DNA of 32,389 nucleotides from Clostridia bacterium (GTDB taxonomy: Bacteria; Bacillota; Clostridia; UBA1381). The DNA is taken from positions 1 to 32,389 of the forward strand of contig JAFSXU010000005.1 of NCBI GenBank assembly GCA_017443895.1, written 5' to 3'. Below, piece by piece: positions 1-30,287 of this stretch. The notes below the pieces were generated by a model. It searched no databases. It was not told the DNA's origin and worked only from the letters and a program-made list of their open reading frames with translations. The stretch's first letter is position 1; the number at the start of each line of letters is the position of its first letter. Both the position numbers and the translations under genes were made by a program.

Positions 1-963
1 GCCGTTTAAGCCGTAGGTATCAGCTTTCCAATCTGTACTACCAAGGGTTGTTGCAAGAGTTGACCATGACGGTGTAGTGGAATCAGAAACAACTGTAACA
101 TCTATCTCACCATCTTTTTTAGCTTTATCGCAATATACTGTGTAACCTTCAGGAGGGACTGCACTACTCGAATTTCCGAATCGTGCAAATGTGTACATCT
201 TGTTATAGTTTTCCACTGTTACATTTTTTGCATAAGAATTGCTTATGTTCGTTTTTTTTGTGCTGGAGCTTATATAACCGACAAATCCTGAAGATGCGAC
301 GCCACTACTACCTGTTATTTTTGATAATGCAGTGACTGTAGAATCTATTACATAGCAATTACTAACGCTTGCATCTGCGCCCAAACAAGCAGCAATCGGA
401 CCTGCTGCCTGAACATAGCCTGTTCCAATAACCGTTAATGTTGAGTTTTTTACATAACAGTTTTCAATGCTCGTTGTACCCTCTGCCCAGCAAGCAAGTA
501 TTCCAAGTCTCACACCTGCTTTACCGCTACTCTGAGTTACAGTAATGTTTGCACCTTCTATTCCAAGATTTTTTATTGTAGCACCATTAAGCTGAGCAAA
601 CATAGCAAATCCGGCATTGTTTGTATCGCCACTGTATGTTTTGGTGATTGTAAGATTTTTAATAACATGATTGTTTCCGTCAAATGTGCCGGTATAGTTT
701 TTTCTGTTAGCAGCAGCGGTTGCATGAGTACCGATTGGGTCAACCGTCTGACCGTCAAGGTCAATGTCGGCAATAAGCTTACCATTGATTGTAAGGTTGG
801 AATTTGCCATTGTAACAAATTCAGCATAATCCTCGGCAGTAGCTATCTCGTAATAGGTTTTGCCGCCAATTTCGATTGTGTTAAGCTCCGCCGATGCGGG
901 CAATGCCGTAAACAGGCTAAACAGCATTGCCAATGCCACTACGATTGATAATCTTTTTTTCAT
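1..963 (-). CDS. Secreted GLUG-repeat surface protein, 3' part cut by the window edge
   Basis: The minus-strand reading frame is open from an ATG at 963 to the window edge, giving 321 visible residues without a stop. AAGGAG stands upstream of the ATG. The first ~27 residues are a signal peptide (MKKR, hydrophobic core, cleavage near PASA|E). The rest is a GLUG-type right-handed beta-helix region, with the recurring pattern GTFDGNNHVIKNL, then 'IKNLGIEGA', then 'IENCYVKNS'. It is clearly a paralogue of the N-terminal halves of the 506-aa and ~1398-aa proteins next to it. The paralogues end in SLH domains, so the missing C terminus probably does too, but this is inference. It is last in the visible gene train, 45 bases after the stop of its neighbour. 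Family membership is secure; the ligand and function are unknown. Confidence 0.85.
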   Translation of the reverse strand, partial: MKKRLSIVVALAMLFSLFTALPASAELNTIEIGGKTYYEIATAEDYAEFVTMANSNLTINGKLIADIDLDGQTVDPIGTHATAAANRKNYTGTFDGNNHVIKNLTITKTYSGDTNNAGFAMFAQLNGATIKNLGIEGANITVTQSSGKAGVRLGILACWAEGTTSIENCYVKNSTLTVIGTGYVQAAGPIAACLGADASVSNCYVIDSTVTALSKITGSSGVASSGFVGYISSSTKKTNISNSYAKNVTVENYNKMYTFARFGNSSSAVPPEGYTVYCDKAKKDGEIDVTVVSDSTTPSWSTLATTLGSTDWKADTYGLNG

Positions 964-1008
964 AACTTTTACCTCTCCTTTTTATCATATTTTTAAATTA
1001 AACTTTTT

Positions 1009-2529
1009 CTATTCCGCCGACAAAAGCTTGCGCAAGGAATGGATTATCCTTGCCGCCTCTGCTCTTGTTGCTGTTCCGAGCGGCTCAAATTCATTTTCGC
1101 CTCTGCCGTTTACTATACCGCTTTCCTTTAAGCTGTAAACAGCAGTTTTGGCGTAGTCGGAAATTTTATAATCGTCTGAAAAGCGTTTTTCCTTTGTACC
1201 GTCTTGGAGCAGGTCTTTCATTGCGTTATGCACAATTACGCACATATCCTGTCTGGAAATATTTTTGGAAACTCCGAACTTATCGTCCGAAACTCCGTTT
1301 ACTATATTATTTTCAAATGCTGTTATTACATAAGGCGCAAACCAGTCATCATCGGAAACATCGGTGAATACTCCGTTATCAGTTACAAGCTCGATACCAA
1401 GCGCTCTTACGAGCATTGTAATTAACGCTTCTCTTGTAACTGCCTTTTCAGGTGCGAAGGTTCCGTCACCGTTACCCTTTACAATACCTTCTGCATACAT
1501 CTGTTCAATGTAATCCTTTGCCCAGTTACCCGAAATATCTCTGAATATTTCAGAGGCTGAGAAATCTTTTTCCCATGCAAGTCGGGGAGCTCCGCTGTTC
1601 AGACCGTATGTATCACTTTTCCAGTAAGTTTCGCCGCCAAGTTTAGCAGGCGTAAGCTCCGAAATATCCGAAATCACGGTTGCTGTGTCATACGCACTGT
1701 ACTTGTCGAGAATGTCCGTATAGCAGTTGATAAATGTAACAGTTTCAGTACCTTGATAACGGTATCTTGCAAAGTTTGTTCGTCTTTCTCCGTCTGCCCG
1801 AATTACATTATTTACAGCATAACAGTTTTGAATAGATTCTTCGGTAGCAGTATCACCCGTATAGCCTACAATAGTGCCCACCTGCAGGCCACCGCCACCC
1901 GGATAGATTGTACCAATCGCATAACCGACGGTACAACCGATTACATAACAGTTCCTGATAGATGCCTTACTTGAAATCATTGGAGCAATTGCTCCCACAG
2001 CCTGAGCCCAATGCTCAGTATCTTTTTCAATTATACTGTTTTTTACATAACATCCTTCAATGGTTGTTGTACCCGATACCTTGCCCGCAATACCGCCCAG
2101 CCATGCACCGCCTTTCGCTGATTGGGTAACTATTACAGAAGCGTTTTCAAGACCGAGATTCTTTATCGTCGCATCTTTAGCGACTCCAATCAATCCAACA
2201 TACACTGAGGACTTATTTTCGTAAGGTTCATTATAGGTGAAGTTCCTGATGATATGACCGTTGCCGTCAAATGTTCCGGAATACGGCACTTCCTCCACTG
2301 CTCCTATTCTGCCCGGCTTTTTACCTGCCAGGTCAATGTCCGCTGTGAGTTTACAATTGATTGTTCCGTCTATGTTTGAAAGTTCTACAAATTCTACATA
2401 CTCATCAGCCGTTCCAATCAAGTAAAAGCCGTCTGCATCCTGAGTGATGGTTGTTTCTGCATATGCCGGAATGTCTGCAAATGTACAAGTCATCGCAAAC
2501 ATCAGCAGGATATTGATAATTCTTCTCAT
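1009..2529 (-). CDS. Secreted GLUG-repeat protein with three C-terminal SLH domains (506 aa)
   Basis: An ATG at 2529 is preceded by AGGAGGT at good spacing. Residues 1-24 form a signal peptide ending near AYA|E. Residues ~25-325 are a GLUG-type beta-helix region (GTFDGNGHIIRNF, 'IKNLGLENA', 'IEGCYVKNS', several 'NCY' turns). From about residue 327 three SLH domains follow, recognisable by FRDISGNWAKDYI, FTDVSDDDWFAPYV and FSDDYKISDYAKTAV with TRE/SRQ/TRA turns. SLH domains bind pyruvylated secondary cell-wall polymer, so the protein should be displayed on the wall. It sits 15 bases after the alkaline phosphatase gene and is probably cotranscribed with it. The DNA of its SLH part is almost identical to that of the ~1398-aa paralogue. 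The role of the beta-helix (adhesion or glycan binding) is inferred only. Confidence 0.88.
   Translation of the reverse strand: MRRIINILLMFAMTCTFADIPAYAETTITQDADGFYLIGTADEYVEFVELSNIDGTINCKLTADIDLAGKKPGRIGAVEEVPYSGTFDGNGHIIRNFTYNEPYENKSSVYVGLIGVAKDATIKNLGLENASVIVTQSAKGGAWLGGIAGKVSGTTTIEGCYVKNSIIEKDTEHWAQAVGAIAPMISSKASIRNCYVIGCTVGYAIGTIYPGGGGLQVGTIVGYTGDTATEESIQNCYAVNNVIRADGERRTNFARYRYQGTETVTFINCYTDILDKYSAYDTATVISDISELTPAKLGGETYWKSDTYGLNSGAPRLAWEKDFSASEIFRDISGNWAKDYIEQMYAEGIVKGNGDGTFAPEKAVTREALITMLVRALGIELVTDNGVFTDVSDDDWFAPYVITAFENNIVNGVSDDKFGVSKNISRQDMCVIVHNAMKDLLQDGTKEKRFSDDYKISDYAKTAVYSLKESGIVNGRGENEFEPLGTATRAEAARIIHSLRKLLSAE
1043..1253. repeat. Near-identical DNA copy of SLH cassette (copy 1)
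   Basis: This stretch, coding for the last SLH domain and part of the second, matches 5087-5297 with only three mismatches that I can find in 211 bases. Similarity continues at a lower level to about 1371. It is a recent duplication or gene conversion between two surface-protein genes. Confidence 0.85.
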
Positions 2530-2544
2530 TTTTCAACCTCCTTT

Positions 2545-4965
2545 CTATTTGCTCTGTGCCAAGTCAACGAACGGCATATATACAAAATCATTAGCATTTT
2601 TCGCTGAACCGATACCTCCGGCATATTCTATCCAGCCGCGTCTGCCATTTCCATCATTATCATTGATAAGTGCCGAAAAACCAAGAACGCTACCTACCTT
2701 CGGAACATAGTCATATCCGAACAGTTCTGACCACTTAACCTTTAGTTCATATGTAAGTGTTTCTATTCCCTTTACACATTCCATAGCAAAGTTTTCGTTC
2801 TGATGAATTTCACCTATTGTTGTAAGACCGTTCTGGCTCATATATCTGAACGCACGGGGAACTCCGTCCATATATGCAAGACCGATTTCTTCAAACTTTG
2901 CGCTATCGTTTATCAACTGATTTTCCGCATCATTGAAGAAACCTAACAGAACACTGTCGCCAAGCCAAAGAGTTGAAACCTCAAAATCAGGCATAAAATC
3001 TTCATCCCGTACAACCGCGTACATATAAAGATATTCGTCATCCCATAAAATCGAGAAATCTCCCGAAAGGTCTCTATCACCTTTCCAGCCCTCAATATTG
3101 ACTATTTGTGAAGCGTCGTCACAAGTCATAACATATCCGTTTTTCCACGCCGCCTCATCAACTACACCGTCAATCTTAATTTCCTCATCCGTGAGTTCGC
3201 TATACGCAAGACCTTTAAACTCTGATGATTTGATATGATATACGCTTCCGTCATCTGAAATAATATCGTATTCAAACACAAGTCCTTCTTGACGCCAGTC
3301 AAAATTCGGGCATTCGATTTCATAAGACTTTGAACTTAATGAGCCAACCTCTATACTAATTTCGTCAATAGCCGTAAATTCTTTCGGTGCTGTGAATTTT
3401 ATTTTACCGTTGAAGCTACCACTTGGCAAAAATGATGTCACAGTAATTTGCCCGTTCCATTTGTTTATATCCGATGTGTCAACATAGACACGCATATCTG
3501 ATTTGATGGGATATATATATGTATTTGTCTCGTATTCAACTTTATTTTCCGCTATATCAAGAAGAAGCTGCGGTACATAGAAACGATCCTTTGCCATTAC
3601 AGTTATCTGTCCGTCAAGGTCTACCACCTCACCGTTAACATAGGCATAGGATACATTAGGAATTGCATACATATCATAATCATTAAACACAAACATTCCC
3701 ATGTCCTTGTCATATGTACACTTATCTGTAACATCAACAAAAAGCTTATTTGAAACATCATCAAGATCAACATTTATCATCTCAGCAAGATATGGTGCTA
3801 TAACCGTATTATCAATTACATTATTTTCATAAGCCGTATGAGTTCCGACGCCTTTTCCTGATATACCCTCGGGATATTTTTCACCCTCGGGAATATACAT
3901 AAATAAACCGACATTTCTTGCTGTATGATTGGTTGATTCCCATGCTATATCCTCCGGTTTTGTTCCGTTCTGAATATTTTTCACTGCATTTTCAAGATTG
4001 TCAGGAAGAATCATACCGCCGGTATCGTGGTCAGCAACAATCACAACAACAGTATCTTCTCTGTTTTTCGCATATTCAAACGCAACACCGCAAGCTTCAT
4101 CAAACGCAATAAACTCACTCGCCATTCCCACTGCATCGTTTCCGTGTCCGGCTCCGTCTACCTTACTGCCCTCTACCATAAGGAAAAACCCTTTCTCACC
4201 GCCGTCGTCAAGTGCTGTTATTGCCGCTTTTGTCATCTCGGCAAGGTTCGGTGTGCCTTCATTGTATGCTATGTCATAAGGAAAAGCAGAATCTGAAAGG
4301 TTTCCCCATATTCTGTCACCGGGCTTGACTGCTTCAAGCTCTTCCTGTGTATCTATTATGTCATAGCCACGAATTTCTGCCTCCGAAATATCTCCCCACT
4401 TAGCGGCACCAAAGCCAACGCCAAGTACCACATCAATGTTCTGGTTTACTATCTGCTCTGACATAGGTGTATAATTTCCTCTGTCCTTTTCATGTGCAGA
4501 AAAAGCTGCCGGTGTTGCATTGGTCCATTCATATGTAGTAACCATACCTGTTTTCATGCCCACATACTGAGCCGCCTCCAAAATAGTGGCCTTCGGTATT
4601 TCTTCCGCCGTCATTCCTACATGGTGGTTATTCGTTTTGTAACCCGATGAAAGAGCCGTACCTGCCGCTGCTGAATCAGTTATATCAGCATTCGCACTAT
4701 ATGTTGTGACCGCACCGACAAGATATTGTTTTGCACACATTTCTCCCGTTTGTACATCGGTCGAGTTAGGATATACATTTCTGTTAAATCCACCTGCCTG
4801 TTTCAGAGCATCACTAAGATAGAAAGGCTCCATACCTCCTCCATCAGGTATCATATAGATTATATTTTTAATTTTTGATTCTTCTTTTTTGCCTGTTGCC
4901 GATACTGATACAACATTAAGGAAACATACCGTCAGTATCAGTAATAATGAAATTATTTTTTTCAT
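2545..4965 (-). CDS. Secreted alkaline phosphatase with C-terminal CBM9-like domain (806 aa)
   Basis: I chose the ATG at 4965, with AGGAGAGG about 7 bases upstream, over an in-frame TTG two codons earlier. Residues 1-24 are a signal peptide. The alkaline phosphatase domain (about 33-400) keeps the expected residues: D41 in MIPDGGG, nucleophile S98 in DITDSAAAGTA, E265, D270 and H274 in MVEGSKVDGAGH, D312-H313 in ADHDTGG, and H347 in STNHTARN. It should be a metal-dependent phosphomonoesterase acting outside the cell. A middle part (~400-585) looks like beta-rich linker domains. From ~588 to the end the pattern IKIDGVVDEAAW ... ILWDDEYLYMYAVVRDEDF is that of CBM9-like/DOMON modules of surface glycan-active enzymes. 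No SLH domain is present. The family is certain; a phosphorylated glycan as substrate is inference from the CBM and the neighbours. Confidence 0.92.
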   Translation of the reverse strand: MKKIISLLLILTVCFLNVVSVSATGKKEESKIKNIIYMIPDGGGMEPFYLSDALKQAGGFNRNVYPNSTDVQTGEMCAKQYLVGAVTTYSANADITDSAAAGTALSSGYKTNNHHVGMTAEEIPKATILEAAQYVGMKTGMVTTYEWTNATPAAFSAHEKDRGNYTPMSEQIVNQNIDVVLGVGFGAAKWGDISEAEIRGYDIIDTQEELEAVKPGDRIWGNLSDSAFPYDIAYNEGTPNLAEMTKAAITALDDGGEKGFFLMVEGSKVDGAGHGNDAVGMASEFIAFDEACGVAFEYAKNREDTVVVIVADHDTGGMILPDNLENAVKNIQNGTKPEDIAWESTNHTARNVGLFMYIPEGEKYPEGISGKGVGTHTAYENNVIDNTVIAPYLAEMINVDLDDVSNKLFVDVTDKCTYDKDMGMFVFNDYDMYAIPNVSYAYVNGEVVDLDGQITVMAKDRFYVPQLLLDIAENKVEYETNTYIYPIKSDMRVYVDTSDINKWNGQITVTSFLPSGSFNGKIKFTAPKEFTAIDEISIEVGSLSSKSYEIECPNFDWRQEGLVFEYDIISDDGSVYHIKSSEFKGLAYSELTDEEIKIDGVVDEAAWKNGYVMTCDDASQIVNIEGWKGDRDLSGDFSILWDDEYLYMYAVVRDEDFMPDFEVSTLWLGDSVLLGFFNDAENQLINDSAKFEEIGLAYMDGVPRAFRYMSQNGLTTIGEIHQNENFAMECVKGIETLTYELKVKWSELFGYDYVPKVGSVLGFSALINDNDGNGRRGWIEYAGGIGSAKNANDFVYMPFVDLAQSK

Positions 4966-4997
4966 CGTCAAACCTCTCCTCAGAGCACGATTTACTT

Positions 4998-5027: not shown

Positions 5028-5055
5028 AGAGGGTGCATCGTGTATTTAGCTGTCA

Positions 5056-8000
5056 TTATTTAACAATAGCTTCCATAATTGAGCAAATTATCCTTGCCGC
5101 CTCTGCTCTTGTTGCTGTTCCGAGCGGCTCAAATTCATTTTCGCCCCTGCCGCTTACTATACCGCTTTCCTTTAAGCTGTAAACAGCAGTTTTGGCGTAG
5201 TCGGAAATTTTATAATCGTCTGAAAAGCGTTTTTCCTTTGTACCGTCTTGGAGCAGGTCTTTCATTGCGTTATGCACAATTACACACATATCCTGTCTTG
5301 AAACATCTTCAAAAACTCCAAATTTATCAGTCGAAATTCCGTTCACTATATTATTTTCAAATGCTGTTATTACATAAGGTGCAAACCAGTCATTATCGGA
5401 AACATCGGTGAATTTACTCCTTGACGGAACAAGCTCGAAACCTAATGCTTTTACAAATACGGTTATAAACTCTTCACGGGTTATATTTTCATCGGGAGAA
5501 AACTCAGACTCCGTTTTACCCGAAATTATACCGTCATTATAAAGCTCCTCGATATACTCCCTCGCCCAGTGACCTTGTATATCCGAAAATACTGCTTTTT
5601 TGTCTCCGGCCTGTGGTGGCGTATCGTTTATCTTAGGCATAGTTATTCCGCTTCCCGTTACAACGGCTGACATTCCGCCGCTGCCGCCTGAGCTGCCGCC
5701 ACCGCCGCCTGACGATGACACGGCTGTTTCCTGTTTAATGATGAAATCTACCTTGCGTTCTTCTGTAAAGGTTACCTCCTTTCCCTCAATTTCTGCTTTT
5801 CTCTCAACCGAAACAGTTAAGGTAACTTTTCCGTCACTGCCCTTCGGACGGTAAATAACGCCCGTATTTGTCATAAGCTTTTCATTTGATGATTTATAGG
5901 TTATTGTGCTTTTATATGACGGGTCGGTCAAAAGCTTAACATCCTTTGTTATATAGCTGACTGTGCAGTTATCGGTTATATACTTTAGTGCCTCATCGGC
6001 GTCCGACTTAACATATGACCTGTTATATAGTTCTGCCTGAGTTATAAATTTTACCTCTACCGATACATCGCTTTGCGGCATTGTAAATGAATACGGTGAT
6101 TTTATCTCATTGCCTCCGACCTTTACCCATTCAACCGCATAGCCTCTATCGGGAGAAGGGCTTATTTGTACCGTTTCGCCTCTGAACGCTTTTTCCGGTA
6201 CAGTTACACTACCGCCGTTGCTATTCGTTTTTGTTATGGTATACGGGGGCATAAACTTTGCCTCTACCGATACATCGGAGTCGGGCATTGTAAAGCTGTA
6301 CGGTGCTGATATTTCACTGCCGTTTACACGCACCCAATCAATTTTATACCCATCATCAGCCGTTACGGTAAGCTCTACCGTTTCGCCTTTAAGCGAAAGC
6401 GCCTTTGATGCCGTTACGGTGCCGTTTTCGGGCGGTGTTATTGCTATTGAATAAGCCGGTACAAGCTGTACCTCTAATTCTATATCGGTATTGGGCATTG
6501 TAAATCTGTATACCCCGTCCGTTTCATCAGGTGATATTTCCTCACCGTTTAATAATACCTTATCAAGTACATATTTATCATCAGGGATAATATCTATCTT
6601 GACCGTATCGCCCCTGAACGCTTTTTCGGGTACAGTTACGCTTCCATGCTCTGTATTTATAACGCTTATATTATGCGGGGACATAAACGCCGCCGTTACG
6701 ATTACATCACTTGACGGCATTATGAATTTGGTGTACGGTGCGGATATTTCCTCTCCGTTTACCTTTACCCAGTCAATTTTATAGCCCTCGTCGGGTACTA
6801 TACTAAGCGCTACAGTTGCGCCTTCAGCCGCCGTCATCGCTGAAGCTACCGTTCCGCCTGTAATGGAGCTATCAACCGTTATTGAATATATGACAGGCTC
6901 TTTTTCCCATTTAAGTGTCGGCACGCCTCCGTTTACCGCATAGGTATCTGCCTTAAATGCACTATCGCCGTTTATTCCGGCTAAAACTGTGCCATCCGAC
7001 CATTCGGGGGCATCGGTTTCGTAATAATTCATTGAAGTTCCTGCGTCAAAGCCCGTTTTTTTGTCCGTATACGAATTTAACCATGCAGTCGTTGTATTTC
7101 CGCTATAACCCAACCTTGCAAAGCCTACTGATTTTTGTCCCGATGGAACATTCAACAGTGTATTGTTATGTGCATAAGAGCGTACTATATTTTCCGCACT
7201 GCCACCCGTCGAAGAAACACATCCGACAAAGCACGATATCGAAGCTCCGCCGCTTGCAGTTCCGCCCGAGGTGCTGAAGCCTACGGTGTTGCCGGTTGAA
7301 TAGCAGTTTATAACCTTAGATTCGCCATTCAAAAATCCGCCTATAGGTGCCGCATAATTGATATAATTTTTAGGCTGTGTTGACAAAACACTGCTGTTCT
7401 TTACATAACAGTTTTCAATCGTTGTTGCATATGCTGCACCTACGATTACTGCCATAACAACGCCGTCTTTTGCGCCTTTGTTCTCAATTTTTGCATTTTC
7501 CAAGCCAAGATTTTTTATTACTGCGCCGTCTGTTGCAGAAAACATTGCAAAGCCGTTATCCGCTACCGCCGAAAATGTTCTTGAAATTGACAGATTTTTT
7601 ATTACATGACCATTACCGTCAAATGTACCGCTATAGCGTAACGAGTCAGCTCTTGCATTGGCATATTTGCCTATTTGAACGCCCGTCCAGCCATCAAGGT
7701 CAATGTCAGCCATGAGTATAGCATTTATAGTTAAGTCTGTATTTGCAAGCTCCACAAATTTCTTGTAATTGTCCGCAGTATAAATCCGGTAATAGGTTTT
7801 TTGGTCAATCACTGTCGTAACAAGCTCACCCTCAGGGATTTCCTTAAACTGTGCCGTTACAGTGACATTTTTATCGGGCATTGTAAATGTATACGGTTCT
7901 TCTACCGCCTCACCGTCTATACGAACCCATTCGGTAACATATCCTGTATCGGGGGTTACGGTCAGGCTTACCTCCTCGCCTCTGAATGCCTTTTCAGGTG

Positions 8001-9252
8001 CCGTTACCGTTCCGTTATCGGACTCAGTTACCGTTACGGTATACGGCAGCATAAACTGTGCCGTTACCGTAGCATTGCCCGACGGCATGGTAAAGCTATA
8101 AGGTGCTTTTATCTCATTGCCGTTTACACGCACCCAGTCAATCTGATAACCTGTATCGGGGGTTACGATTAAGCTTACACTTGCACCGTTTGCCGCCTCT
8201 GCCGGCGCCGTCACGCTACCGCCTGTGATTGAGCCGTCTACAGTTATTGTATATATCCCCGGCTCACTCTCCCACGAAAGTCTCGGCGCACCGCCGTTTA
8301 CAGACTGCGTATCAGCCTTGAACGCTTCTCCTAAAGTTCCGGCAAGCGTCGCCCACTCTGTGCTATCTGTTTCATAAAAGCCCATTTTACTTGTGCTGTC
8401 AAAGCCTGCAAGTAAATCGGTATATGAATTTGTCCATACAATGGTTGTGTTTCCGCTTGTGCCTTTTCTCGCAAAGCCCGTTCTTTTCTGATTGTCGGGT
8501 AAATTCGATAATGTATTACCTCTTGCATAAGAGTTTACAATATTCGCCGCAGTGCCTGCTGTTGCTACACAGCCTACAAATGACGATACCGATGTTCCGC
8601 CGTTTGCAGTTCCGCCTGCGGTACTAAAGCCTGCGGTATTACCCGTCGAATAACAGTTTGTTACCGTTGACTTTGCATCCATATAGCCTAACAGCGGTGC
8701 CGCATAGGTAATATAATTATTAGCCTGAGTTGATAAAACGGTACTGTTCTTTATATAACAGCCCTCTACTGCCGTTCCGTATGCCGCCGCTATAAGACCG
8801 CCCATTACAACTCCGTCTTTTGCGCCTGTGTTTTCAATCTTTGCATTTTCCAGTCCCAAATTCTTTATCACAGCACCGTTTGTTGAAGAAAACATCGCAA
8901 AGCCGTTATCCGCAACCGCTGAAAATTCCTTTGAAACTGACAAGTTTGTTATTACATGCCCATTACCGTCAAAGGTACCGCTATACCTTAATGAACCTGC
9001 GCCACTACCCTTGTATGTACCTATCGGAACAATCTCTTTACCGCTTAAATCAATGTCTGCGGTAAGAATGGCGTTTATTGTAAGGTCGGCATTTGCCAAA
9101 GCCACAAATTCAAGATAATCCTCAGCAGTGCCTATTTTATAATAGGTTTTACTGTCAATTTCAGTTGTGGCAAGCTCCGCAGACACAGGTATTGCCGTAA
9201 GCATTGTGAAAAGCATCGCCAAACACAGAGCCAATGAAAGTATTTTTTTCAT
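5056..9252 (-). CDS. Giant SLH surface protein: two GLUG modules, six InlB-type B-repeats, Ig-like domain (~1398 aa)
   Basis: An AAAGGAG directly abuts an ATG at 9261. The in-frame ATG at 9252 has it at 9 bases and is the likelier start. Domains in order: signal peptide (cleavage near VSA|E, ~residue 26); GLUG module 1 (~30-335); two B-repeat-like units of ~70 residues ('GYQIDWVRVNG..I.APYSFTMP'); GLUG module 2 (~475-790), strongly similar to module 1; four further B-repeats (~795-1075); an atrophied bacterial Ig domain ('ITYKSSNEKLMTNTGVIYRP'); a Gly/Ser-rich linker (~1180-1200); and three SLH domains (~1220 to end). The whole protein is predicted to be extracellular and wall-attached. Module order suggests duplication of a GLUG plus two B-repeats unit. 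Ligand binding or adhesion is inferred; no catalytic domain is seen. Confidence 0.9.
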   Translation of the reverse strand: MKKILSLALCLAMLFTMLTAIPVSAELATTEIDSKTYYKIGTAEDYLEFVALANADLTINAILTADIDLSGKEIVPIGTYKGSGAGSLRYSGTFDGNGHVITNLSVSKEFSAVADNGFAMFSSTNGAVIKNLGLENAKIENTGAKDGVVMGGLIAAAYGTAVEGCYIKNSTVLSTQANNYITYAAPLLGYMDAKSTVTNCYSTGNTAGFSTAGGTANGGTSVSSFVGCVATAGTAANIVNSYARGNTLSNLPDNQKRTGFARKGTSGNTTIVWTNSYTDLLAGFDSTSKMGFYETDSTEWATLAGTLGEAFKADTQSVNGGAPRLSWESEPGIYTITVDGSITGGSVTAPAEAANGASVSLIVTPDTGYQIDWVRVNGNEIKAPYSFTMPSGNATVTAQFMLPYTVTVTESDNGTVTAPEKAFRGEEVSLTVTPDTGYVTEWVRIDGEAVEEPYTFTMPDKNVTVTAQFKEIPEGELVTTVIDQKTYYRIYTADNYKKFVELANTDLTINAILMADIDLDGWTGVQIGKYANARADSLRYSGTFDGNGHVIKNLSISRTFSAVADNGFAMFSATDGAVIKNLGLENAKIENKGAKDGVVMAVIVGAAYATTIENCYVKNSSVLSTQPKNYINYAAPIGGFLNGESKVINCYSTGNTVGFSTSGGTASGGASISCFVGCVSSTGGSAENIVRSYAHNNTLLNVPSGQKSVGFARLGYSGNTTTAWLNSYTDKKTGFDAGTSMNYYETDAPEWSDGTVLAGINGDSAFKADTYAVNGGVPTLKWEKEPVIYSITVDSSITGGTVASAMTAAEGATVALSIVPDEGYKIDWVKVNGEEISAPYTKFIMPSSDVIVTAAFMSPHNISVINTEHGSVTVPEKAFRGDTVKIDIIPDDKYVLDKVLLNGEEISPDETDGVYRFTMPNTDIELEVQLVPAYSIAITPPENGTVTASKALSLKGETVELTVTADDGYKIDWVRVNGSEISAPYSFTMPDSDVSVEAKFMPPYTITKTNSNGGSVTVPEKAFRGETVQISPSPDRGYAVEWVKVGGNEIKSPYSFTMPQSDVSVEVKFITQAELYNRSYVKSDADEALKYITDNCTVSYITKDVKLLTDPSYKSTITYKSSNEKLMTNTGVIYRPKGSDGKVTLTVSVERKAEIEGKEVTFTEERKVDFIIKQETAVSSSGGGGGSSGGSGGMSAVVTGSGITMPKINDTPPQAGDKKAVFSDIQGHWAREYIEELYNDGIISGKTESEFSPDENITREEFITVFVKALGFELVPSRSKFTDVSDNDWFAPYVITAFENNIVNGISTDKFGVFEDVSRQDMCVIVHNAMKDLLQDGTKEKRFSDDYKISDYAKTAVYSLKESGIVSGRGENEFEPLGTATRAEAARIICSIMEAIVK
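5087..5297. repeat. Near-identical DNA copy of SLH cassette (copy 2)
   Basis: Partner of 1043-1253 in direct orientation, offset 4044 bases, with three mismatches over 211 bases. An uninterrupted identical block of over 100 bases lies between the second and third mismatch. This is enough for homologous recombination that would delete the phosphatase gene. Confidence 0.85.
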
Positions 9253-9289
9253 ATTTCTCATCTCCTTTGTCTATCCGCTTTTCAACAGC

Positions 9290-14335: not shown

Positions 14336-14345
14336 AACTGCCCTC

Positions 14346-17033: not shown

Positions 17034-20000
17034 CCCGAACCTCCTCTGTTACTATTACCTTAACATTTTTAATAATATTAAACTCGTTTGAACAAACGAT
17101 AAGGTTTGCCGTTCCTTCCCTGACACCAATAAGACTCACGGTATCCTTGTTTACACGCACAACTTTTTTGTCCTCGCTTTCACAGACAATGGACTTATTT
17201 GTAACATCATCAGGCAGTAATTGGTATTCAAGCTTTTTAGTTTCACCCGGCTTTAGATATATAACATCATCAATTATCAAATCCTCTGCCTCTACCGGAT
17301 TATATTTATCCTTATCCGTAGTTTGGTCTATATAAGTCCTCTGTATCTTATGGTCATAGTTGTACTCAAAAAACCCTTCTACATAACCACTGAACGGATA
17401 GTATTCGGGGATCAAATCCTTATCCCCTCTTATAGCCGCTTCAAGATAGCAAAGAGAATAGTATTTATCCGCATTCTGTGCGCCTGTCTTTACTATATAG
17501 TACTGTGACGGCAATATACCCGTATTTGACTGTGCCACGAAAATTCCATACTTGTAATATGTAGAAATCATATTTTCGGCAATTCTTCTTGCAAGGGTTA
17601 AAAATTCGGTATTTTCCGTGGAGTAATAAAGATCTGTAACCGCCATAAGCAACAGTGGCGATGATGCTGTAGTTGCATAATTTAGCTCCATACCCCGGTC
17701 ACCTATATCATTTTCGCCAAGCTTTCCCAGTCCGTAGTATTTGGAGAAAAACTGGAGATATTTCCAGAGTATACCCGCCTGCTCCGAAAGTGCCTTGTCA
17801 TGCTTTGCTATATCATAGCAGGCACACGCAGACGGGAAAACATCAATGTTTATTGAGGTATATCCCATTGTTCCGCCATTGTCGTAATAGTTACCGAAAA
17901 ATCCGTTTCTCTTTGGCTTAAATCCGACAAGGCTTGTTCCGTCAGCCATTATCGGTCTTACCTTGTTGGTATTCTTTACCCATGCGTATTTAATGTACGC
18001 AGCAAGATTTATTGTCTGAAGTCTTTTTATTTCCTGTGCTTCATAGGAATCCTCGCCCAAAGCCTTTGCTATCTGTAAATCGTGTATTATCGGTGTTCCG
18101 AACTGGTCGGAATTATTAAAGTAATTGCCCTCGGTAAGCCTTGTATCATTTTCTGCGAGTACCGAAGAATCGTAAAATCCCTGTTTAACCAGATCGGTTG
18201 CAAACTGATTGAAAAATCTGTCACCATACTTTATCGCTGAGATAGTGTCGCCACTAAAGTGAGTCTTTTTCCACCAGTCCGGATCCTCCGCATCGGGATT
18301 GAGGCCACCCTTTGCATTTCTGCCCGTTGCATACATACTGGGAATTATACCCGTATTGGGATTACGCCGCTTATAGTAGCAGTTAAGTATTCTGTACGCC
18401 CATGTTCTTGCCAATTCATCACCCGTTTCCTTATATGCTATTGCAGCAACAGTTGATAAATCATCGCCTATACCCCTGAACGGCTGTTCCGTGCTGTCTC
18501 TTACCCAATCCGTGTTTGAATCGTCAAAAATATCGGGAATATCCCAGAATGCCGTGCTTTTGGCAATCTGCGGACCTCTTGTATTATCCACAAATGCGTG
18601 TCTGTTGGCTATAAGGTCCTTCCACCGTGCCTCCGAGCCTATATGACCGCCCCAGATGGTTTTTACCAGCGAGTATGCTCTGTCGGGATCAAGTCTGAAA
18701 AACGGATCCATATAAAATGCCGTATTTTTAAGCTCATGGGTATTGTCGTTGCCCTCACAGCCGAATCTGTCGGAGGTAAGCAGGTTTATATACGAGTGTC
18801 CGCCCCATTTGCCCATATTGTACTCATCTATACCGTAGTCAAGATACCACTGATATATCTCGTCCACCTTATCCGAAAAATCAGTCCTGCCCGTCAGCGC
18901 CGCCGCTGCATCAAACGCTCTGTATAAAACAGAATCCTGCGTCAGATTTGACATAACGGATTTTATGCCCTTTGTCATACTTACATAAACAGGCGACTGT
19001 CCCGTATGCAGATCGATGTTAGATGCAAGAAGCGGAGTACCGCCGTAAATATCCTTTGCATAGTCCATAACATTCTCTATCGCATCGCACAGAATATTCA
19101 TTCTTGCCTGATCGTTTTTATATGTTTCAAGATCCATAAGAGTGAGCTTCTTTTCCGCCTTTACACTCTTATCCTCCGCATAATAAACAACCAGAGTTAT
19201 ATGCTTTTCACCTTTTATAGGTGATAAAACAGTTAATTCTCCACTTTCATCAAGGCTCACCTCAGGACAAAGCTCTTTTATCCTCATTATCACAGGCTCC
19301 TTGCGTTGCAATAAGCCGTATTGATCATACATACTGTACTTGTATTTGAAGGTGTTTCTGTCATTCAGTCCATACGCAAGCTTTGTCTCACCGATTATCT
19401 CGATTTTTGAAATAATTGAATCAACGAGCATAATATCCGCAGTTTTCTTTACTGTGGGATTTTCGGCAAGTGTTGCACTAAGCTTTAAAATACCGTTATA
19501 TGCCGTATCCTCCGAGACAGATATTTTTGCCGAATTTCCATCACTTGTAAAAGTGATTCCGCTTACTCCGGCAGGACTTAAATCCCATACTATCTCATCA
19601 TCGCTCTGTGCTCCGTAATCGTCAAAAATCGTTGCGGTGTACTCATAAATATTTTCCCCGCTTATAGGAACGGTTGCCTTATTACTTCCGTCTATTACAA
19701 TTTTGTCAGGCTTATTGAGCGTTCTTATCTCGATATTATCCACTGCAAATCCCGGCGAGCTCCTTGTGTAAAAGCATATTGCATCACAGTAGCTCGACGC
19801 ACTTGTAAACGACTTGTCTATCATAACGGTTTTATTATCAGCTTTCACTGTAACAGTACCCTTTGCAAGATCCGCATTTACAGTAAACGAATACCACCTG
19901 TTCGCCTGATATTCGCTGACAAGTACCTCATGTGTACCGTCGCTGTTCTTATAGCTGATATTTCCGGCATTTGTTTCAATTTTCACTATTTCATCGCTTC

Positions 20001-20361
20001 CGCTAAGCAAAGCAAACACCGTTGTTCCGTTACTCTTTACCGACTGCTGTGAAAAATCAAATATAAATTCCGCCCCAACATCGCTTATTCTTGAAAAAGA
20101 CCTTTTAACCGTACTCATTGCGCCGTCATTATCCTTTGAAACCGCAATGCACTTACTGCCAAGGTAGCTTTCAACCGAAACCGTACCGTCTGTAAAATTA
20201 GCATGATACTGAGACGGCAGTGTCCCGACTGTAACATCTTCAAAGGTCTCGTTAATTTCGGCAAACTGAGCATTTGACGAAACAGGCACTGCAATGTCAA
20301 GCGCTGCTGTCATACACAGGCTCAATACTCCTGCTACGGCTTTTTTTATTTTTCTACGCAT
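17017..20361 (-). CDS. Secreted multidomain protein with probable alpha/alpha-toroid polysaccharide lyase/hydrolase core (1114 aa)
   Basis: The ATG at 20361 is preferred because AGGAGG is 10 bases upstream; an ATG at 20370 would be only 1 base from it. A signal peptide occupies ~1-32 (SSNA|Q). Residues ~35-205 look like a concanavalin-like carbohydrate-binding domain (ETFEDVTVGTLP ... AVDNIEI). Two Ig-like domains follow to ~400. Residues ~400-990 are alpha-helical and rich in W, Y, H and G ('MGKWGGHSYINLL', 'EQPFRGIGDDLSTVAAIAY', 'RRNPNTGIIPSMY'), as in alpha/alpha-toroid pectate and uronate-active enzymes. A Big_2-like domain ends the protein (~1010-1110). No SLH domain is present. Position after the GH105 gene suggests it generates the unsaturated oligomers that GH105 consumes. 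The family number is not certain; a PL2-like or other lyase and an unassigned hydrolase are alternatives. Confidence 0.8.
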   Translation of the reverse strand: MRRKIKKAVAGVLSLCMTAALDIAVPVSSNAQFAEINETFEDVTVGTLPSQYHANFTDGTVSVESYLGSKCIAVSKDNDGAMSTVKRSFSRISDVGAEFIFDFSQQSVKSNGTTVFALLSGSDEIVKIETNAGNISYKNSDGTHEVLVSEYQANRWYSFTVNADLAKGTVTVKADNKTVMIDKSFTSASSYCDAICFYTRSSPGFAVDNIEIRTLNKPDKIVIDGSNKATVPISGENIYEYTATIFDDYGAQSDDEIVWDLSPAGVSGITFTSDGNSAKISVSEDTAYNGILKLSATLAENPTVKKTADIMLVDSIISKIEIIGETKLAYGLNDRNTFKYKYSMYDQYGLLQRKEPVIMRIKELCPEVSLDESGELTVLSPIKGEKHITLVVYYAEDKSVKAEKKLTLMDLETYKNDQARMNILCDAIENVMDYAKDIYGGTPLLASNIDLHTGQSPVYVSMTKGIKSVMSNLTQDSVLYRAFDAAAALTGRTDFSDKVDEIYQWYLDYGIDEYNMGKWGGHSYINLLTSDRFGCEGNDNTHELKNTAFYMDPFFRLDPDRAYSLVKTIWGGHIGSEARWKDLIANRHAFVDNTRGPQIAKSTAFWDIPDIFDDSNTDWVRDSTEQPFRGIGDDLSTVAAIAYKETGDELARTWAYRILNCYYKRRNPNTGIIPSMYATGRNAKGGLNPDAEDPDWWKKTHFSGDTISAIKYGDRFFNQFATDLVKQGFYDSSVLAENDTRLTEGNYFNNSDQFGTPIIHDLQIAKALGEDSYEAQEIKRLQTINLAAYIKYAWVKNTNKVRPIMADGTSLVGFKPKRNGFFGNYYDNGGTMGYTSINIDVFPSACACYDIAKHDKALSEQAGILWKYLQFFSKYYGLGKLGENDIGDRGMELNYATTASSPLLLMAVTDLYYSTENTEFLTLARRIAENMISTYYKYGIFVAQSNTGILPSQYYIVKTGAQNADKYYSLCYLEAAIRGDKDLIPEYYPFSGYVEGFFEYNYDHKIQRTYIDQTTDKDKYNPVEAEDLIIDDVIYLKPGETKKLEYQLLPDDVTNKSIVCESEDKKVVRVNKDTVSLIGVREGTANLIVCSNEFNIIKNVKVIVTEEVRDEEDN

Positions 20362-20375
20362 TTTTACCATTCCTC

Positions 20376-21485
20376 CTATTCCTCATACTCTCCGCACATT
20401 ATCGCAAAAGCACCGCTTCCATGCAGGTCATTTGTGCACACATCACGGCTTATATAATGCTCATAAGTACCCTCGTCGATACAGGTACCCACGCATATAT
20501 CGCCCAGCAATAACACGCCCTCATTATCGTATTTCAATGAATTTATTATGCCTCTGTAGCCTTTCTTTGCAGTTTCTTTAAAGCTTTTATCAATATATCC
20601 CTTTCTTACCGCCTTTGAAATGGCATATACAAAAAGGCAGGATGAGGAATTTTCAAGCCAATTCCCCTTTTCTTTTGGCTTATCCGTAACCTCGTACCAG
20701 CGCCCGTCATCATCGCTCTGATATTTTGAAATTGCCAAAAGCGTATCGGCTAAAATATGTATGAGTCTTGCCCTGCCCGTATGCTCTTTTGGTAGATAGT
20801 CAAGGATATCAACTATCGCCGTCACATACCAGCCCATGGCTCTTCCCCAAACCTCTTGGGACTTACCCGTTTTCTTATCTGCCCACTTTGCCTTCTTTGA
20901 TTCGTCCCAGCCATGCACCAAAAGACCTGTTTTTTGATCAACCATATTTTCGTACATAACCGTTACCTGCCTTACGGCAAGGTCAAAAAATTCGGGCCTA
21001 TTCATTTTTTGGGCATACATCGCCATAAGCGGTCCCACCATATAAAGACCGTCAAGCCACATCTGATTTTCCTCATATTTCATATGCCATAATCCGCCCT
21101 TTGAATTTGTAGGATAATCCTTCAAGCTCTCAACCAGATAGCGGACATTGTTCAAATATTTCTCATCGTGAGTTTTCTCATACAGTGGAAAAAACAGCAC
21201 TCCTGCCTGACGGAAATCAAGTGTCTCAAGCGATACCCAGCCTGTACCCAGATCATTTACCGTACCATCTGCTTTTAAGGTGGAATCCACCCATAACTTT
21301 ATATAGTCAAACAATTCCTCATTGCCTGTTTTTTTATAAATCCCGTACATTCCCGAAAGGAACACACCCTGATGATAAGTAAACAGGGATATTTTATGAT
21401 ACGGAGGTAATTTTTTTGCCTCATACCGTTTCATTATGGCATACAGTGCCTGCATACCATAATCCACCGGCTTTAACTTTTCCAT
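20376..21485 (-). CDS. GH105-family unsaturated rhamnogalacturonyl/glucuronyl hydrolase (369 aa)
   Basis: The ATG at 21485 has AGGAGG at ideal spacing and follows the regulator's TGA with one intervening base. A longer in-frame start at 21518 would overlap the regulator and lacks this support. No signal peptide is visible, so the enzyme is cytoplasmic. The protein is full length for the family and shows the alpha6/alpha6-barrel patterns of YteR-type enzymes: MWLDGLYM at 142-149, whose D145 corresponds to the catalytic Asp (YteR D143), H191 in VHGWD, and VWGRAMGWY at 212-220. Members hydrate and release the 4,5-unsaturated uronic acid from the non-reducing end of lyase products such as rhamnogalacturonan disaccharides. 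The family call is firm. The exact substrate (rhamnogalacturonan versus another unsaturated uronide) is inferred. Confidence 0.92.
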   Translation of the reverse strand: MEKLKPVDYGMQALYAIMKRYEAKKLPPYHKISLFTYHQGVFLSGMYGIYKKTGNEELFDYIKLWVDSTLKADGTVNDLGTGWVSLETLDFRQAGVLFFPLYEKTHDEKYLNNVRYLVESLKDYPTNSKGGLWHMKYEENQMWLDGLYMVGPLMAMYAQKMNRPEFFDLAVRQVTVMYENMVDQKTGLLVHGWDESKKAKWADKKTGKSQEVWGRAMGWYVTAIVDILDYLPKEHTGRARLIHILADTLLAISKYQSDDDGRWYEVTDKPKEKGNWLENSSSCLFVYAISKAVRKGYIDKSFKETAKKGYRGIINSLKYDNEGVLLLGDICVGTCIDEGTYEHYISRDVCTNDLHGSGAFAIMCGEYEE

Positions 21486-21486
21486 A

Positions 21487-23691
21487 TCATTCTTCCTCCT
21501 CTTTATGATTTTGGACATATTCCCTGTACTCTGTAGGTGTCATACCTGTAATGCTCTGGAATAACCTGTTGAATGTTCTTACACTTACAATGCCTACCTG
21601 CTCCGATGCCTCCCTTATCTTTTTACCCTCGACTATGAGCTCCTTCGCCCGCTCAATTCGGTACTGGTTAAGATAGGAAATAACTGTTTTATTATATTTT
21701 TTCCTGAAGGTATTGTTTAAATGTACCACAGAATAATTAAGTTTATCACTTATTGTTTTCATACTTAATTGCGGATTGGTATAGTTATCTTGAATATACT
21801 CTTTTATCTCTTCTGCAAAATCTTCTTTTTCGCTTGTTTTTATTACATCATTACACATTTTATCTACGAAACGGATCAAGGTCTCCCTGAGAATCCGTAT
21901 GTTATTTCTACTCCTTAATAGTATTGAAATATCGTTTGTATCATAATTTTCACCGAAAACAGAATCCGCTATCCGCATCAGCGATGAAATCAGTCCGACC
22001 GAAACATTTGTATAAGTAAATGTATTTTCGGCATCAATTCTGCCTGTTGCATCGGCTATTATTTGGGCAGCGTCCTCTTTGTTTCCGCCCCGTATCGCCT
22101 TTGCAAGCCTCATTTCATCATTTAAATTAAATCTGAATCGGTTATTCTTATAGGTTAAATCCCTGTAAAATACAACCTTGGATTTATCGAACAAATCAAC
22201 CTTGTTCATAACCTCCAATGCCTCTGAATATGCCATAGGTATCTGCCAGTAACCCTCATGGACATCAGAAATGGCTATAGATGCAACAAACTCAAAATCT
22301 ATTTCCAAAATTTTTGTAAGATATGCAAATTTCAATCCAAGATTTTTTAGGTCCACATCAGACCCGGTATTATAAATGCACACCAAATACTGCCTCTTAG
22401 ATACTAAATACGGTACTCCTCCGTCATCGCTCACCATTTCTGTAATTGAATCTTCAAAGGTCTTTACAAGCTCTGAGTTTTCCTGCTCTGTAAGCTCATT
22501 ATCTCTGTAAATATTTATAAGAATTACAACAAAGCTGTTAAACTTGAATTGTAATCCGTAAATTTCTGTCTCTAAAATGTCCTTATTTATGTCACCTTTG
22601 AGGAGACCGTCAATAACTATCGTTCTTAACTTCGTATCCTTGTCCGCCAACATATTGTTAAGGATATTATTCTTATCTACAATGCTTTTTATGGGTTTTT
22701 CAAGTATTCTGTAATCAATTTTGTCAATATTTATCTGTAAAAGTTCCGATATTGCCTCTATGGGCTTTAACCTCGTTGTATACAGGTTATAGAGCAAAAA
22801 CGCAACTGTCAGAATCATTAAAATCATCATTGTATTTAAGACAAGCTGTGTGCTCTTTACCATATCCATATCAACATCTTTTTCAAAAATTACATTTATG
22901 TTGTATGGCATACCGTATACGGTAACATCATACGAGCTTACCTCGTATTTATCCTTCAGAGTGTATAATTCCGAATATGTCGGCTGAGTTGACATCCCTT
23001 CAAGCTTTATATTTTCATCGTAAAGATTGGGTCTGCCATTGTGGCTGTACACATATATGTTGCATTTGTTTACCCACGGAACATACGGGGTTTTCGGAAA
23101 AATCGAATTTCTGTTGGTAAAACCACCCAAAATGACACGGCTTTCTTCTCTTTTACCAAAATTATCATTTACCGCCAATGCAAAGGAAATCCTGTCGTCT
23201 TTTACAATAAAATCTCTGCCTCTGTTCTCATCCAATAGTATGTTTTTCCAATCCTCATATGATTCAAAATACTTTTTCTCTGCTATCTGATAGAACACTT
23301 CAGGCTCCAATATGCCGGATTTGCACAAAATAATGTCCGACTGCTCAAGATAAACATATGTCTGTTCTATCATCAAAGATGAACGGGCAACAGATCCCAT
23401 TTTCTTTGCAATATCTATTGCCGTTCGGGATCTGTAAACCTGTTGTTTGTCGGAAAGACTTTGAAGCACGGTAAATTCTTCCTCAGTTATTGTTCCTACC
23501 GCAAAAGAATCTACCTGTGCATAGAAATCAGAAATTCTTTCTATTGCCTGCTCTTTTACATAACTGTTTATCTCCACTATCTGACTCTTGAAGATTTTAT
23601 AAAACCATATGTTTACCAAAATCATCAAAAGTACAACAAAAAGAATCACTGCAATATATTTTCTTATTTTGAGCTTCTGAATTCTTTTCAT
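21487..23691 (-). CDS. Membrane-anchored AraC-family transcriptional regulator (734 aa)
   Basis: The ATG at 23691 is preceded by GGAGAG. Two membrane segments (about 12-31 and 283-304) enclose an extracellular sensor of ~250 residues, and a cytoplasmic region follows. The C-terminal ~105 residues are an AraC/XylS DNA-binding domain with two helix-turn-helix motifs ('SMKTISDKLNYSVVHLNNTF' and 'IREASEQVGIVSVRTFNRLF') and the typical GMTPTEYREY end. Between TM2 and the DNA-binding domain is a GGDEF-like or YesN-like linker that I cannot assign. Such proteins sense extracellular oligosaccharide directly or through a binding protein and activate the adjacent sugar-use genes. It is the second gene of the train, directly after the solute-binding lipoprotein and coupled to the GH105 gene. 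Target promoter is inferred to be the one upstream of 25296. Confidence 0.9.
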   Translation of the reverse strand: MKRIQKLKIRKYIAVILFVVLLMILVNIWFYKIFKSQIVEINSYVKEQAIERISDFYAQVDSFAVGTITEEEFTVLQSLSDKQQVYRSRTAIDIAKKMGSVARSSLMIEQTYVYLEQSDIILCKSGILEPEVFYQIAEKKYFESYEDWKNILLDENRGRDFIVKDDRISFALAVNDNFGKREESRVILGGFTNRNSIFPKTPYVPWVNKCNIYVYSHNGRPNLYDENIKLEGMSTQPTYSELYTLKDKYEVSSYDVTVYGMPYNINVIFEKDVDMDMVKSTQLVLNTMMILMILTVAFLLYNLYTTRLKPIEAISELLQINIDKIDYRILEKPIKSIVDKNNILNNMLADKDTKLRTIVIDGLLKGDINKDILETEIYGLQFKFNSFVVILINIYRDNELTEQENSELVKTFEDSITEMVSDDGGVPYLVSKRQYLVCIYNTGSDVDLKNLGLKFAYLTKILEIDFEFVASIAISDVHEGYWQIPMAYSEALEVMNKVDLFDKSKVVFYRDLTYKNNRFRFNLNDEMRLAKAIRGGNKEDAAQIIADATGRIDAENTFTYTNVSVGLISSLMRIADSVFGENYDTNDISILLRSRNNIRILRETLIRFVDKMCNDVIKTSEKEDFAEEIKEYIQDNYTNPQLSMKTISDKLNYSVVHLNNTFRKKYNKTVISYLNQYRIERAKELIVEGKKIREASEQVGIVSVRTFNRLFQSITGMTPTEYREYVQNHKEEEE

Positions 23692-23727
23692 AACAAAGTC
23701 TCTCCGAAATTTATTTTAGTTTATTTT

Positions 23728-25296
23728 TTATCTCTTGTTGTATCTGTCTAAAGCTGCTTCCTGAATTTCAATTGCACGGTCAATATTCAATGACTTTATT
23801 TTTGCCACAAAGCTGTCATATTCACTCAACGGTGTTGTGCCGATTATGAAGTTTGTGAACATCTTTGACTCGTATTTGCTTATTTCCGCCATTATGCCGC
23901 TGTATTCCTTTGCTTCTTCATCAGTCCTTGATATGTTCGGTATGTTATTCTTACTTACCTCATCATAGCCCAACAACCATGCATCAAGTGCCTGCTGTTG
24001 CTGAGGTCTGAAATAGAACTGGTCTATATAGCCTTTTGACTGTACAAACGGGCCTTTAAGCGAGCTTCTGAAATAATTTGCCATTGCCTGCTGCATTGTC
24101 AAACCATTGGGGTTATTATAAATCATATCCGTGTAGACATACTCTCCGTCCTTCTCTTCAAAGCTTACACCCTCTACACCGAAATTATACAGAATGTGCC
24201 CTTCGTCGCTATAGGCATAATCAAGCCAACGCGCTGCAAGCTCCGGATTTTTACATGCCGTGGTTATTGCAACAGAACCATATTTTGGATATTCCGTTTC
24301 AACCTTGTAGAAGCTTATTGGCTTATCCTCCGATATTCTTGTAAACGGTATGCCTGTCATATCAAAGTCCTTATCTTTCATAGTGTCAAGCCAGCCACCT
24401 AAGTTTCCTCCGCCTGTTCCGACAGTTATACCCGTTTTTCCGTTTAAGACATTCGCCGATAAGACGGTATCGTCAACCGATACAAAGTTGGGATCGAGCA
24501 AGCCTTCGTCATACCAACGCTTCAAGGTCTCAACCGCAGTTTTGTAATTTTCGGTGAGCGGTCCGTAAACAACCTTTCCGTCCTCAAGATAACAACCGGT
24601 AGATGTACCGAAATTACCTAAGAAAGTATCACGCTTACCCGGGACATAGCTTAACGGTGCTGTTGCGCCCTTTTTCTCCTTAAATGCCCTTAAAATGTTC
24701 TCCGTATCCGCAACAGTTTTAGGTTCTTCAAGTCCAAGCTCTTTGAGCCAGTCGCTCCGTATCAGTGTACCAACAGAAATCAAAAGTCGCTTGTCTCCTC
24801 TGATAAACGGGAATGCATAATAATTGCCCTCATCTGTTTTTACCATTTTGTCGATTTCGGGATGCTCCTGCAAATATTTTTTAAGGTTAGGCGCATTTTT
24901 GTCAATTATATCGTTCAACTGATAGATAATGCCCTCGCTTATGCTCTTTTCAGCACCACCGTTAAAATCCGCCCAAGAGGTCTCAATAAGGTCCGGTAGT
25001 TGATCCGATGCTATCATAAGATTTAATGCTGTTGATTCCTGACCTGTAGCCGGATGGATATACTCAACCTGCACTCCCGTTCTCTTCTCAAGCTCTTTTG
25101 CAAAATCTGTCTTGCCTGCATTGTCTACTACAGATGAGATGGATGTATTCATGTCCATCCAGTATGTAAGCTTTTGATCCGTTTCCATCGGATACTTTTT
25201 GAATTTGAAGTCCGAATTTGAAACCGTTCCGCCCTTTTGGCATCCACTAAGAAGCAGAGCCGCCACACACCCAAGTGCCATAATTTTTTTGATCAT
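23728..25296 (-). CDS. ABC-type extracellular solute-binding lipoprotein, LplA/YtcQ-like (522 aa)
   Basis: The ATG at 25296 has AAAGGAAG upstream. The signal sequence ends in a lipobox LLLSGC (Cys19), so the protein is lipid-anchored outside the membrane. The rest has the layout of family-1 sugar-binding proteins of the LplA/YtcQ type: 'LTYWMDMN' at the start of the mature domain, then 'FAKELEKRTGVQVEYIHP', 'MIASDQLPDLIE', 'YAFPFIRGDKR', and a C-terminal 'NPELAARWLDYAYSDEGH'. These proteins bind oligosaccharides, often uronate-rich pectin fragments, for a two-permease ABC importer. No permease gene adjoins it: upstream is mobile-element debris and downstream is the regulator, 36 bases away. 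It may serve a distant permease pair, or act as the ligand receptor for the regulator; both are inference. Confidence 0.92.
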   Translation of the reverse strand: MIKKIMALGCVAALLLSGCQKGGTVSNSDFKFKKYPMETDQKLTYWMDMNTSISSVVDNAGKTDFAKELEKRTGVQVEYIHPATGQESTALNLMIASDQLPDLIETSWADFNGGAEKSISEGIIYQLNDIIDKNAPNLKKYLQEHPEIDKMVKTDEGNYYAFPFIRGDKRLLISVGTLIRSDWLKELGLEEPKTVADTENILRAFKEKKGATAPLSYVPGKRDTFLGNFGTSTGCYLEDGKVVYGPLTENYKTAVETLKRWYDEGLLDPNFVSVDDTVLSANVLNGKTGITVGTGGGNLGGWLDTMKDKDFDMTGIPFTRISEDKPISFYKVETEYPKYGSVAITTACKNPELAARWLDYAYSDEGHILYNFGVEGVSFEEKDGEYVYTDMIYNNPNGLTMQQAMANYFRSSLKGPFVQSKGYIDQFYFRPQQQQALDAWLLGYDEVSKNNIPNISRTDEEAKEYSGIMAEISKYESKMFTNFIIGTTPLSEYDSFVAKIKSLNIDRAIEIQEAALDRYNKR

Positions 25297-29468: not shown

Positions 29469-29491
29469 TGGTCATCCCCCTTTGTTACAAA

Positions 29492-30286: not shown

Positions 30287-30287
30287 T

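Follow-up and report, generated by a model that had tools for sequence, protein, structure and literature searches.

A predicted pectin utilisation locus of a Clostridia bacterium in which a PL2 pectate lyase gene adjoins a recurring pair of SLH protein genes

Described systems for comparison

Gram-positive fibre degraders of the gut and rumen have no universal PUL marker of the SusC/SusD kind, which makes it difficult to predict where their loci lie and what substrates they serve. Among systems that have been described, the rhamnogalacturonan cluster of Bacillus subtilis (the yteR/yes genes) combines a YteR-like GH105 enzyme, a sugar ABC importer, and a membrane AraC regulator, as does the locus analyzed here, whereas it is not known to include SLH giants and relies on PL11 or other lyases rather than PL2. 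In Bacteroidetes, SusC/SusD loci carry a recurring pair of surface proteins that has been expanded by paralogy across glycan loci. The present locus shares this pattern by analogy only: it encodes no SusC or SusD homologue among the proteins scanned, the cell has no outer membrane, both partners are predicted to be wall-anchored through SLH repeats, and import would proceed via an ABC transporter.

The overall strategy is already known from Paenibacillus sp. JDR-2, whose SLH-anchored systems for xylan, beta-glucan, and starch belong to a genome with 77 SLH genes, 29 of them for carbohydrates (PMC4765114). Both share multimodular SLH wall proteins, dedicated ABC importers, regulators, and intracellular processing, but the division of labour differs: in JDR-2 the enzyme itself bears the SLH domain (PMC4765114), whereas here the lyase is without SLH, and its conserved neighbour is a dedicated SLH protein (hereafter the SLH/OB protein) with no recognised catalytic domain, accompanied by a partner. 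The cultured pectin degrader Monoglobus pectinilyticus likewise has an SLH/OB homologue adjoining an SLH gene and cell-wall genes; unlike those of the pectate lyase loci, it falls in a slow single-locus clade outside the PL2-linked clade (one record searched).

Architecture and probable continuation of the locus

The stretch of DNA analyzed (the window) is the whole of contig C7 (32,389 nt) from a 2.72 Mb genome that comprises 77 contigs and is 99.5% complete. Its minus strand holds ten co-directional ORFs between position 25296 and base 1:

23728..25296, minus strand: sugar ABC solute-binding lipoprotein (SBP_bac_1, E 7e-21; lipobox LLLSGC)
21487..23691, minus strand: AraC-type regulator, predicted to be membrane-bound (HTH_18, E 2e-17; hydrophobic segments in the sequence)
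20376..21518, minus strand: GH105, YteR-like unsaturated (rhamno)galacturonyl hydrolase, predicted cytoplasmic (Glyco_hydro_88, E 9e-101)
17017..20370, minus strand: PL2 pectate lyase, predicted secreted, without SLH (Pectate_lyase_2, E 6.5e-69)
14346..17033, minus strand: SLH/OB-type protein of 895 aa, core of the recurring pair (SLH the only Pfam match)
9290..14335, minus strand: giant SLH protein with GLUG, eight aBig_2, and three SLH repeats, partner of the SLH/OB protein (Pfam)
5056..9261, minus strand: giant SLH protein with two GLUG beta helices, six InlB repeats, aBig_2, and three SLH repeats (Pfam, GLUG alignment)
2545..4971, minus strand: alkaline phosphatase, predicted secreted, with C-terminal CBM9-like domain (Alk_phosphatase, E 2e-55; CBM9_1, E 7e-12)
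1009..2529, minus strand: GLUG beta-helix protein with three SLH repeats (SLH, E 3e-35)
1..963, minus strand: GLUG protein cut by the contig end, resuming on contig C43 (L020; 141-nt overlap)

From the solute-binding protein gene to gene 10, intergenic distances are 36, -32, 5, -17, 10, 28, 84, 15, and 45 nt; no terminator-like hairpins were found on the minus strand in the gaps between the ten ORFs, and the 564 nt upstream of 25296 contain a promoter-like TTGAAA-17-TATGCT. With gaps ranging from -32 to +84 nt, the single co-directional run without real gaps described in the original prediction is borne out, and its domain guesses (solute-binding protein, AraC, GH105, SLH, phosphatase, GLUG) were all matched by Pfam. 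The secreted toroid-type enzyme that it proposed also exists and can now be named as Pectate_lyase_2 (PL2). Its count of ten genes holds for the window, while the whole locus is larger and goes on in contig C43. Of the "at least four, probably five" anchored or beta-helix giants, four carry SLH; the fifth (1-963) is a GLUG protein, in whose continuation on C43 no SLH was found. Pfam likewise detected no SLH repeats in the phosphatase (2545-4971).

Beyond the 564 nt upstream of the locus lies a recombinase fragment. A large serine recombinase is present there in two pieces (25861-27173): the ORF at 25861-27021 has no N-terminal resolvase domain, part of which is encoded by a short out-of-frame ORF at 26994-27173. 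The pectin locus therefore adjoins the remains of a mobile element. Further upstream (28440-32036), a DNA methylase gene (N4/N6) shares its strand with a tandem pair of genes for TdeIII-type restriction endonucleases, and the three likely constitute a restriction-modification system.

At the other end, the final 141 nt of the window in the minus-strand direction recur without any difference at the start of contig C43. This overlap is exact and in-frame, its full sequence is found nowhere else in the genome, and the reading frame of gene 10 runs on across it; from this assembler overlap we infer that C7 and C43 are adjacent in the genome. C43 completes gene 10 (GLUG/InlB) on the same strand and then encodes a second PL2, here in fusion with a GLUG domain, a giant protein with aBig_2 and GLUG, GH3, a histidine phosphatase, GH39-like and PHP-like proteins, two ABC permeases, and a GH36-like protein. 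The importer that seemed to be absent from the window therefore does exist, and the total locus would comprise about 20 genes and about 45 kb on two contigs. The C7-C43 junction was not observed in a second genome, the congeners G001-G004 having yielded no match to the GLUG/phosphatase end. The other end of C43 also lies in an exact 141-nt overlap, which indicates that this value is the assembler's k-mer length. Here a 141-nt end of contig C57 is common to C43 and C40, and copies of a glycyl-radical-enzyme-like gene (96% nucleotide identity) stand at the ends of C43 (L020:18853-19674) and C40 (L089:3799-4626). Given that this far end is a repeat common to C40 and C57, the next contig is ambiguous, and the locus was therefore not extended past C43.

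Anchoring of the giant proteins at the wall, as originally proposed, agrees with the three SLH stretches that Pfam finds in each of the proteins at 9290-14335, 5056-9261, and 1009-2529, and with the presence of a CsaB pyruvyltransferase in the same genome (TIGR03609, 258 bits, above cut-off, at C21). The binding role that had been suggested for the GLUG modules, by comparison, found no support. When modelled, the GLUG domain of the 1009-2529 protein (residues 24-320) folds as a right-handed beta helix. Among solved structures, BACOVA_03286 (3n6z; Z 27.9) comes closest to it, followed by the IgA1-protease beta-helix domain (Z about 21), while pectate lyases and other beta helices score Z 11-12. 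In the model this likeness is one of shared fold, with no sign of catalysis or bound sugar. While the fold of the GLUG modules is that of the IgA1-protease beta-helix domain (3n6z, 7uvk, 6xja), the present proteins have no peptidase domain, and GLUG is instead fused to SLH, Ig-like repeats, or pectate lyase.

Two described types of apparatus were rejected on domain content. Pfam gave no cohesin or dockerin modules in the ten proteins at E values up to 0.1, which speaks against a cellulosome. Neither a SusC TonB-dependent transporter nor a SusD lipoprotein was matched by Pfam or NCBIfam in the ten proteins or in the scanned C43 genes, which leaves the SusD comparison of the original prediction as an analogy and not as membership of a Sus-type system.

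Predicted pectin enzymes and substrate

The PL2 protein at 17017..20370 covers positions 1-490 of the 491 in the Pfam Pectate_lyase_2 profile, i.e. a full-length catalytic domain, which aligns along its whole length with solved PL2 lyases (PDB 6ojk, E 2e-38) and is accompanied by an N-terminal CBM-like and a C-terminal Big_2 domain. Residues H525, E546, R590, and H591 are conserved in the alignment; from what is known of the family, we take R590 to be the catalytic Arg and H525, E546, and H591 to be metal ligands. The protein is accordingly a PL2 family member with an intact active site, and would act on galacturonan. At another locus (G082), a PL2-like protein (L024:11655-15149) has Gln in place of the metal-ligand Glu while the Arg and both His are kept, and its activity is possibly altered or lost.

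The closest solved relative of the GH105 protein is YteR (PDB 1nc5, E 7e-90), and no signal peptide was found in 20376..21518. The solute-binding protein is closest to PDB entries 5xs8/5gub (E 3e-43), followed by AlgQ1/AlgQ2 (E ~1e-35), all of them proteins that bind unsaturated uronide (glycosaminoglycan) or alginate oligosaccharides; a 54% identical orthologue is encoded at the PL2 locus G040:C38. In the AraC regulator, two hydrophobic segments read from the sequence flank an outer region. Taken together, the PL2 lyase, the YteR-like GH105, and the uronide-type solute-binding protein converge on lyase-made pectin-type uronides, in keeping with the uronate-rich substrate that had been predicted.

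We consider it improbable that the lyase and GH105 act on some other acidic polymer, such as a uronide of host or algal origin or an exopolysaccharide made by bacteria. Such a substrate would accord with the best PDB matches of the solute-binding protein, to unsaturated-glycosaminoglycan and alginate binders, and with the heparinase-like and alginate-lyase-like enzymes at other SLH/OB loci, but PL2 enzymes are known on galacturonan and the catalytic residues are conserved here, YteR, to which the GH105 comes closest, acts on rhamnogalacturonan, and of the named relatives the nearest is a genome from the rumen. One co-directional cluster holds the gene content of a Gram-positive PUL, namely an AraC regulator, a solute-binding protein, permeases (on C43, joined via the 141-nt overlap), two PL2 lyases, GH105, GH3, and a GH36-like protein, and we read it as a PUL for pectin, i.e. 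for homogalacturonan and probably also rhamnogalacturonan. The alkaline phosphatase (closest PDB entry 3wbh, E 2e-39) was rejected as a core part of the locus since none of the other PL2 loci examined showed it; it is lineage-specific, and the explanation preferred below does not account for it.

The SLH/OB protein, its partner, and a possible surface platform

PL2 genes are rare, occurring in 5 of 150 relatives' genomes and in 4 of 391 genomes of a class-wide draw. Contigs were long enough for a test of gene neighbourhood at seven PL2 loci (the window, RUG12844, G040:C11, G040:C38, G082, G093, and G437), a set that leaves out second PL2 genes of the same locus (on C43 and its RUG12844 counterpart). 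An SLH/OB homologue lies directly after PL2 in all seven of these informative loci, which span three families; a lack of such conserved enzyme-SLH linkage in related genomes had been named in the original prediction as grounds for its own refutation, and that outcome did not occur. The RUG12844 locus has 85% nucleotide identity to the window over 10.6 kb. At every PL2 locus with enough contig, the gene next after SLH/OB encodes an SLH or Ig-repeat giant, and a GH105 gene lies nearby at four (window, G082, G040:C38, and G437). The loci G040:C38 and G437 belong to different families and yet are sisters with 100/100 support whether the tree is built from PL2 or from SLH/OB sequences, while the second PL2 locus of G040 is placed elsewhere; the two trees agree where both resolve. 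On these phylogenies, the PL2-SLH/OB module moves as a unit.

The 895-aa protein consists of three N-terminal SLH repeats and a body of ~700 aa made up of OB-like beta domains, and beyond SLH it has no significant match in Pfam or NCBIfam. Two SLH stretches are scored by Pfam, and in the AlphaFold2 model (pLDDT 79) the SLH trimer reaches Z ~19 to SpaA/Sap. Neither Foldseek nor structure comparison of the model gave an informative match for the OB-like body; LEF-3, RPA, and DDB1, to which Foldseek matched the beta body, were set aside as generic beta/OB matches, and the similarity of the C-terminal residues 820-895 to the self-assembly domain of 9fs9 (Z 7.2, rmsd 2.7 over 68) is tied with generic OB folds. 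The model does combine an SLH anchor with an array of beta domains, as would be expected of an S-layer protein. The reading as a plain S-layer protein was set aside as incomplete because the PL2-linked copies form a fast clade of their own.

A search with a body-only profile placed the SLH/OB family in 101 of 121 relatives, with at least nine scored copies in many genomes. The 4.1 Mb genome G010 (L098-L105) gave 88 first-look candidates, which are not confirmed members, and at least nine scored copies, a count that suggests extreme expansion. In the family tree, the slow single-locus clade that includes M. pectinilyticus (100/100) stands apart from fast paralogs, which sit in glycan loci, and every PL2-linked SLH/OB protein falls into a single clade (100/99). 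The family is undescribed and is the novel part of the locus; searches of the literature outside subscription journals gave no description of the protein pair.

Pairing was assessed in 40 further SLH/OB copies from eleven genomes, taken from the top of the match list in SLH-rich genomes. The immediate same-strand neighbour is an SLH protein in 31 of them, a fraction that is an estimate for these 40 copies and not for all family members. SLH proteins account for 35 of 73 adjacent genes, compared with 17 of 276 among the remaining genes of these regions (Fisher p 1.2e-15). Distances between SLH/OB bodies correlate with those between partner SLH segments, the segment being longer than the SLH triplet for a few partners (Mantel r 0.56; mean r 0.16 with partners shuffled within genomes, p 2e-4). 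A non-SLH domain of ~330 aa, detected by HMM, is common to the short SLH partners (538-592 aa) and several long ones (its carriers also lie on L107, L106, L123, L128, L104, and L117), while Pfam gives only SLH in the first short partner. This domain is absent from the partner in the window (9290-14335); a single partner family was therefore rejected, and there are at least two partner types.

Pfam tallies of neighbouring genes include ABC permeases, solute-binding proteins, CBMs, alginate-lyase-like and heparinase-like lyases, GH28, GH88, GH42, rhamnosidase, and others, although the control set of distant genes also holds some glycan genes. At L072:2190-8323 in genome G012, next to an SLH/OB gene, two adjacent proteins show an unusual fusion: each has an FGE-sulfatase (formylglycine-generating-like) domain at its N-terminus together with a heparinase II/III-like domain.

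Constant pairing, co-divergence, relatedness to a conserved SLH protein that occurs at a single locus, and the place in glycan loci together make a surface platform specific to each locus, whether scaffold or receptor, the most likely role of the SLH/OB protein with its SLH partner. We regard as reasonably likely the explanation that joins this platform to the pectin lyases and importer in one locus. The membrane AraC sensor would switch the locus on, and secreted PL2 lyases, whose family and active site are apparent, would cut de-esterified galacturonan near the cell. The solute-binding lipoprotein would bind the fragments, the ABC permeases encoded on C43 would import them, and the YteR-like GH105, judged by homology, would open them in the cytoplasm. 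At the wall, the giant SLH proteins would hold beta-helix and Ig-like modules via pyruvylated secondary wall polymer, and the SLH/OB protein with its SLH partner would most likely form an S-layer-like platform specific to the locus, holding polymer, enzyme, and products close to the importer.

It is less probable, though far from negligible, that the SLH/OB protein and the SLH giants serve for attachment to plant fibre as general adhesins or as components of an S-layer, sharing an operon with pectin enzymes incidentally and having no substrate-specific role. SLH proteins are very numerous in this genome (112 SLH repeats), the SLH/OB family has a conserved single-locus member by cell-wall genes in Monoglobus, and adhesins commonly contain GLUG and Ig modules; set against these points are the conserved adjacency and parallel trees with PL2, the repeated occurrence of SLH/OB copies beside importers and lyases, and the confinement of fast divergence to the locus copies.

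Under the preferred reading of a locus-specific platform, the best SusD-analogous candidate would be, rather than the giants, the 895-aa SLH/OB protein, whose family has expanded in glycan loci along with an SLH partner. More tentatively, and with the odds somewhat against it, the pair could be a wall-anchored counterpart of SusC/SusD that derives from a conserved envelope protein, supplies one receptor or scaffold per glycan locus, and marks Gram-positive PULs. If this were true, the recurring surface pair would serve as a PUL marker across an order of largely uncultured Clostridia, and the S-layer-type wall would be a modular display platform with one tile per substrate. The family-wide SLH/OB pair is the part likely to be of most interest to the specialist, and given that M. 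pectinilyticus is cultured and has at least the single-locus relative, expression and localisation are testable now. The M. pectinilyticus record L137 (NZ_OY725740.1), labelled "plasmid 16", contains a ribosomal protein operon, secY, and rpoA, and looks like a piece of chromosome.
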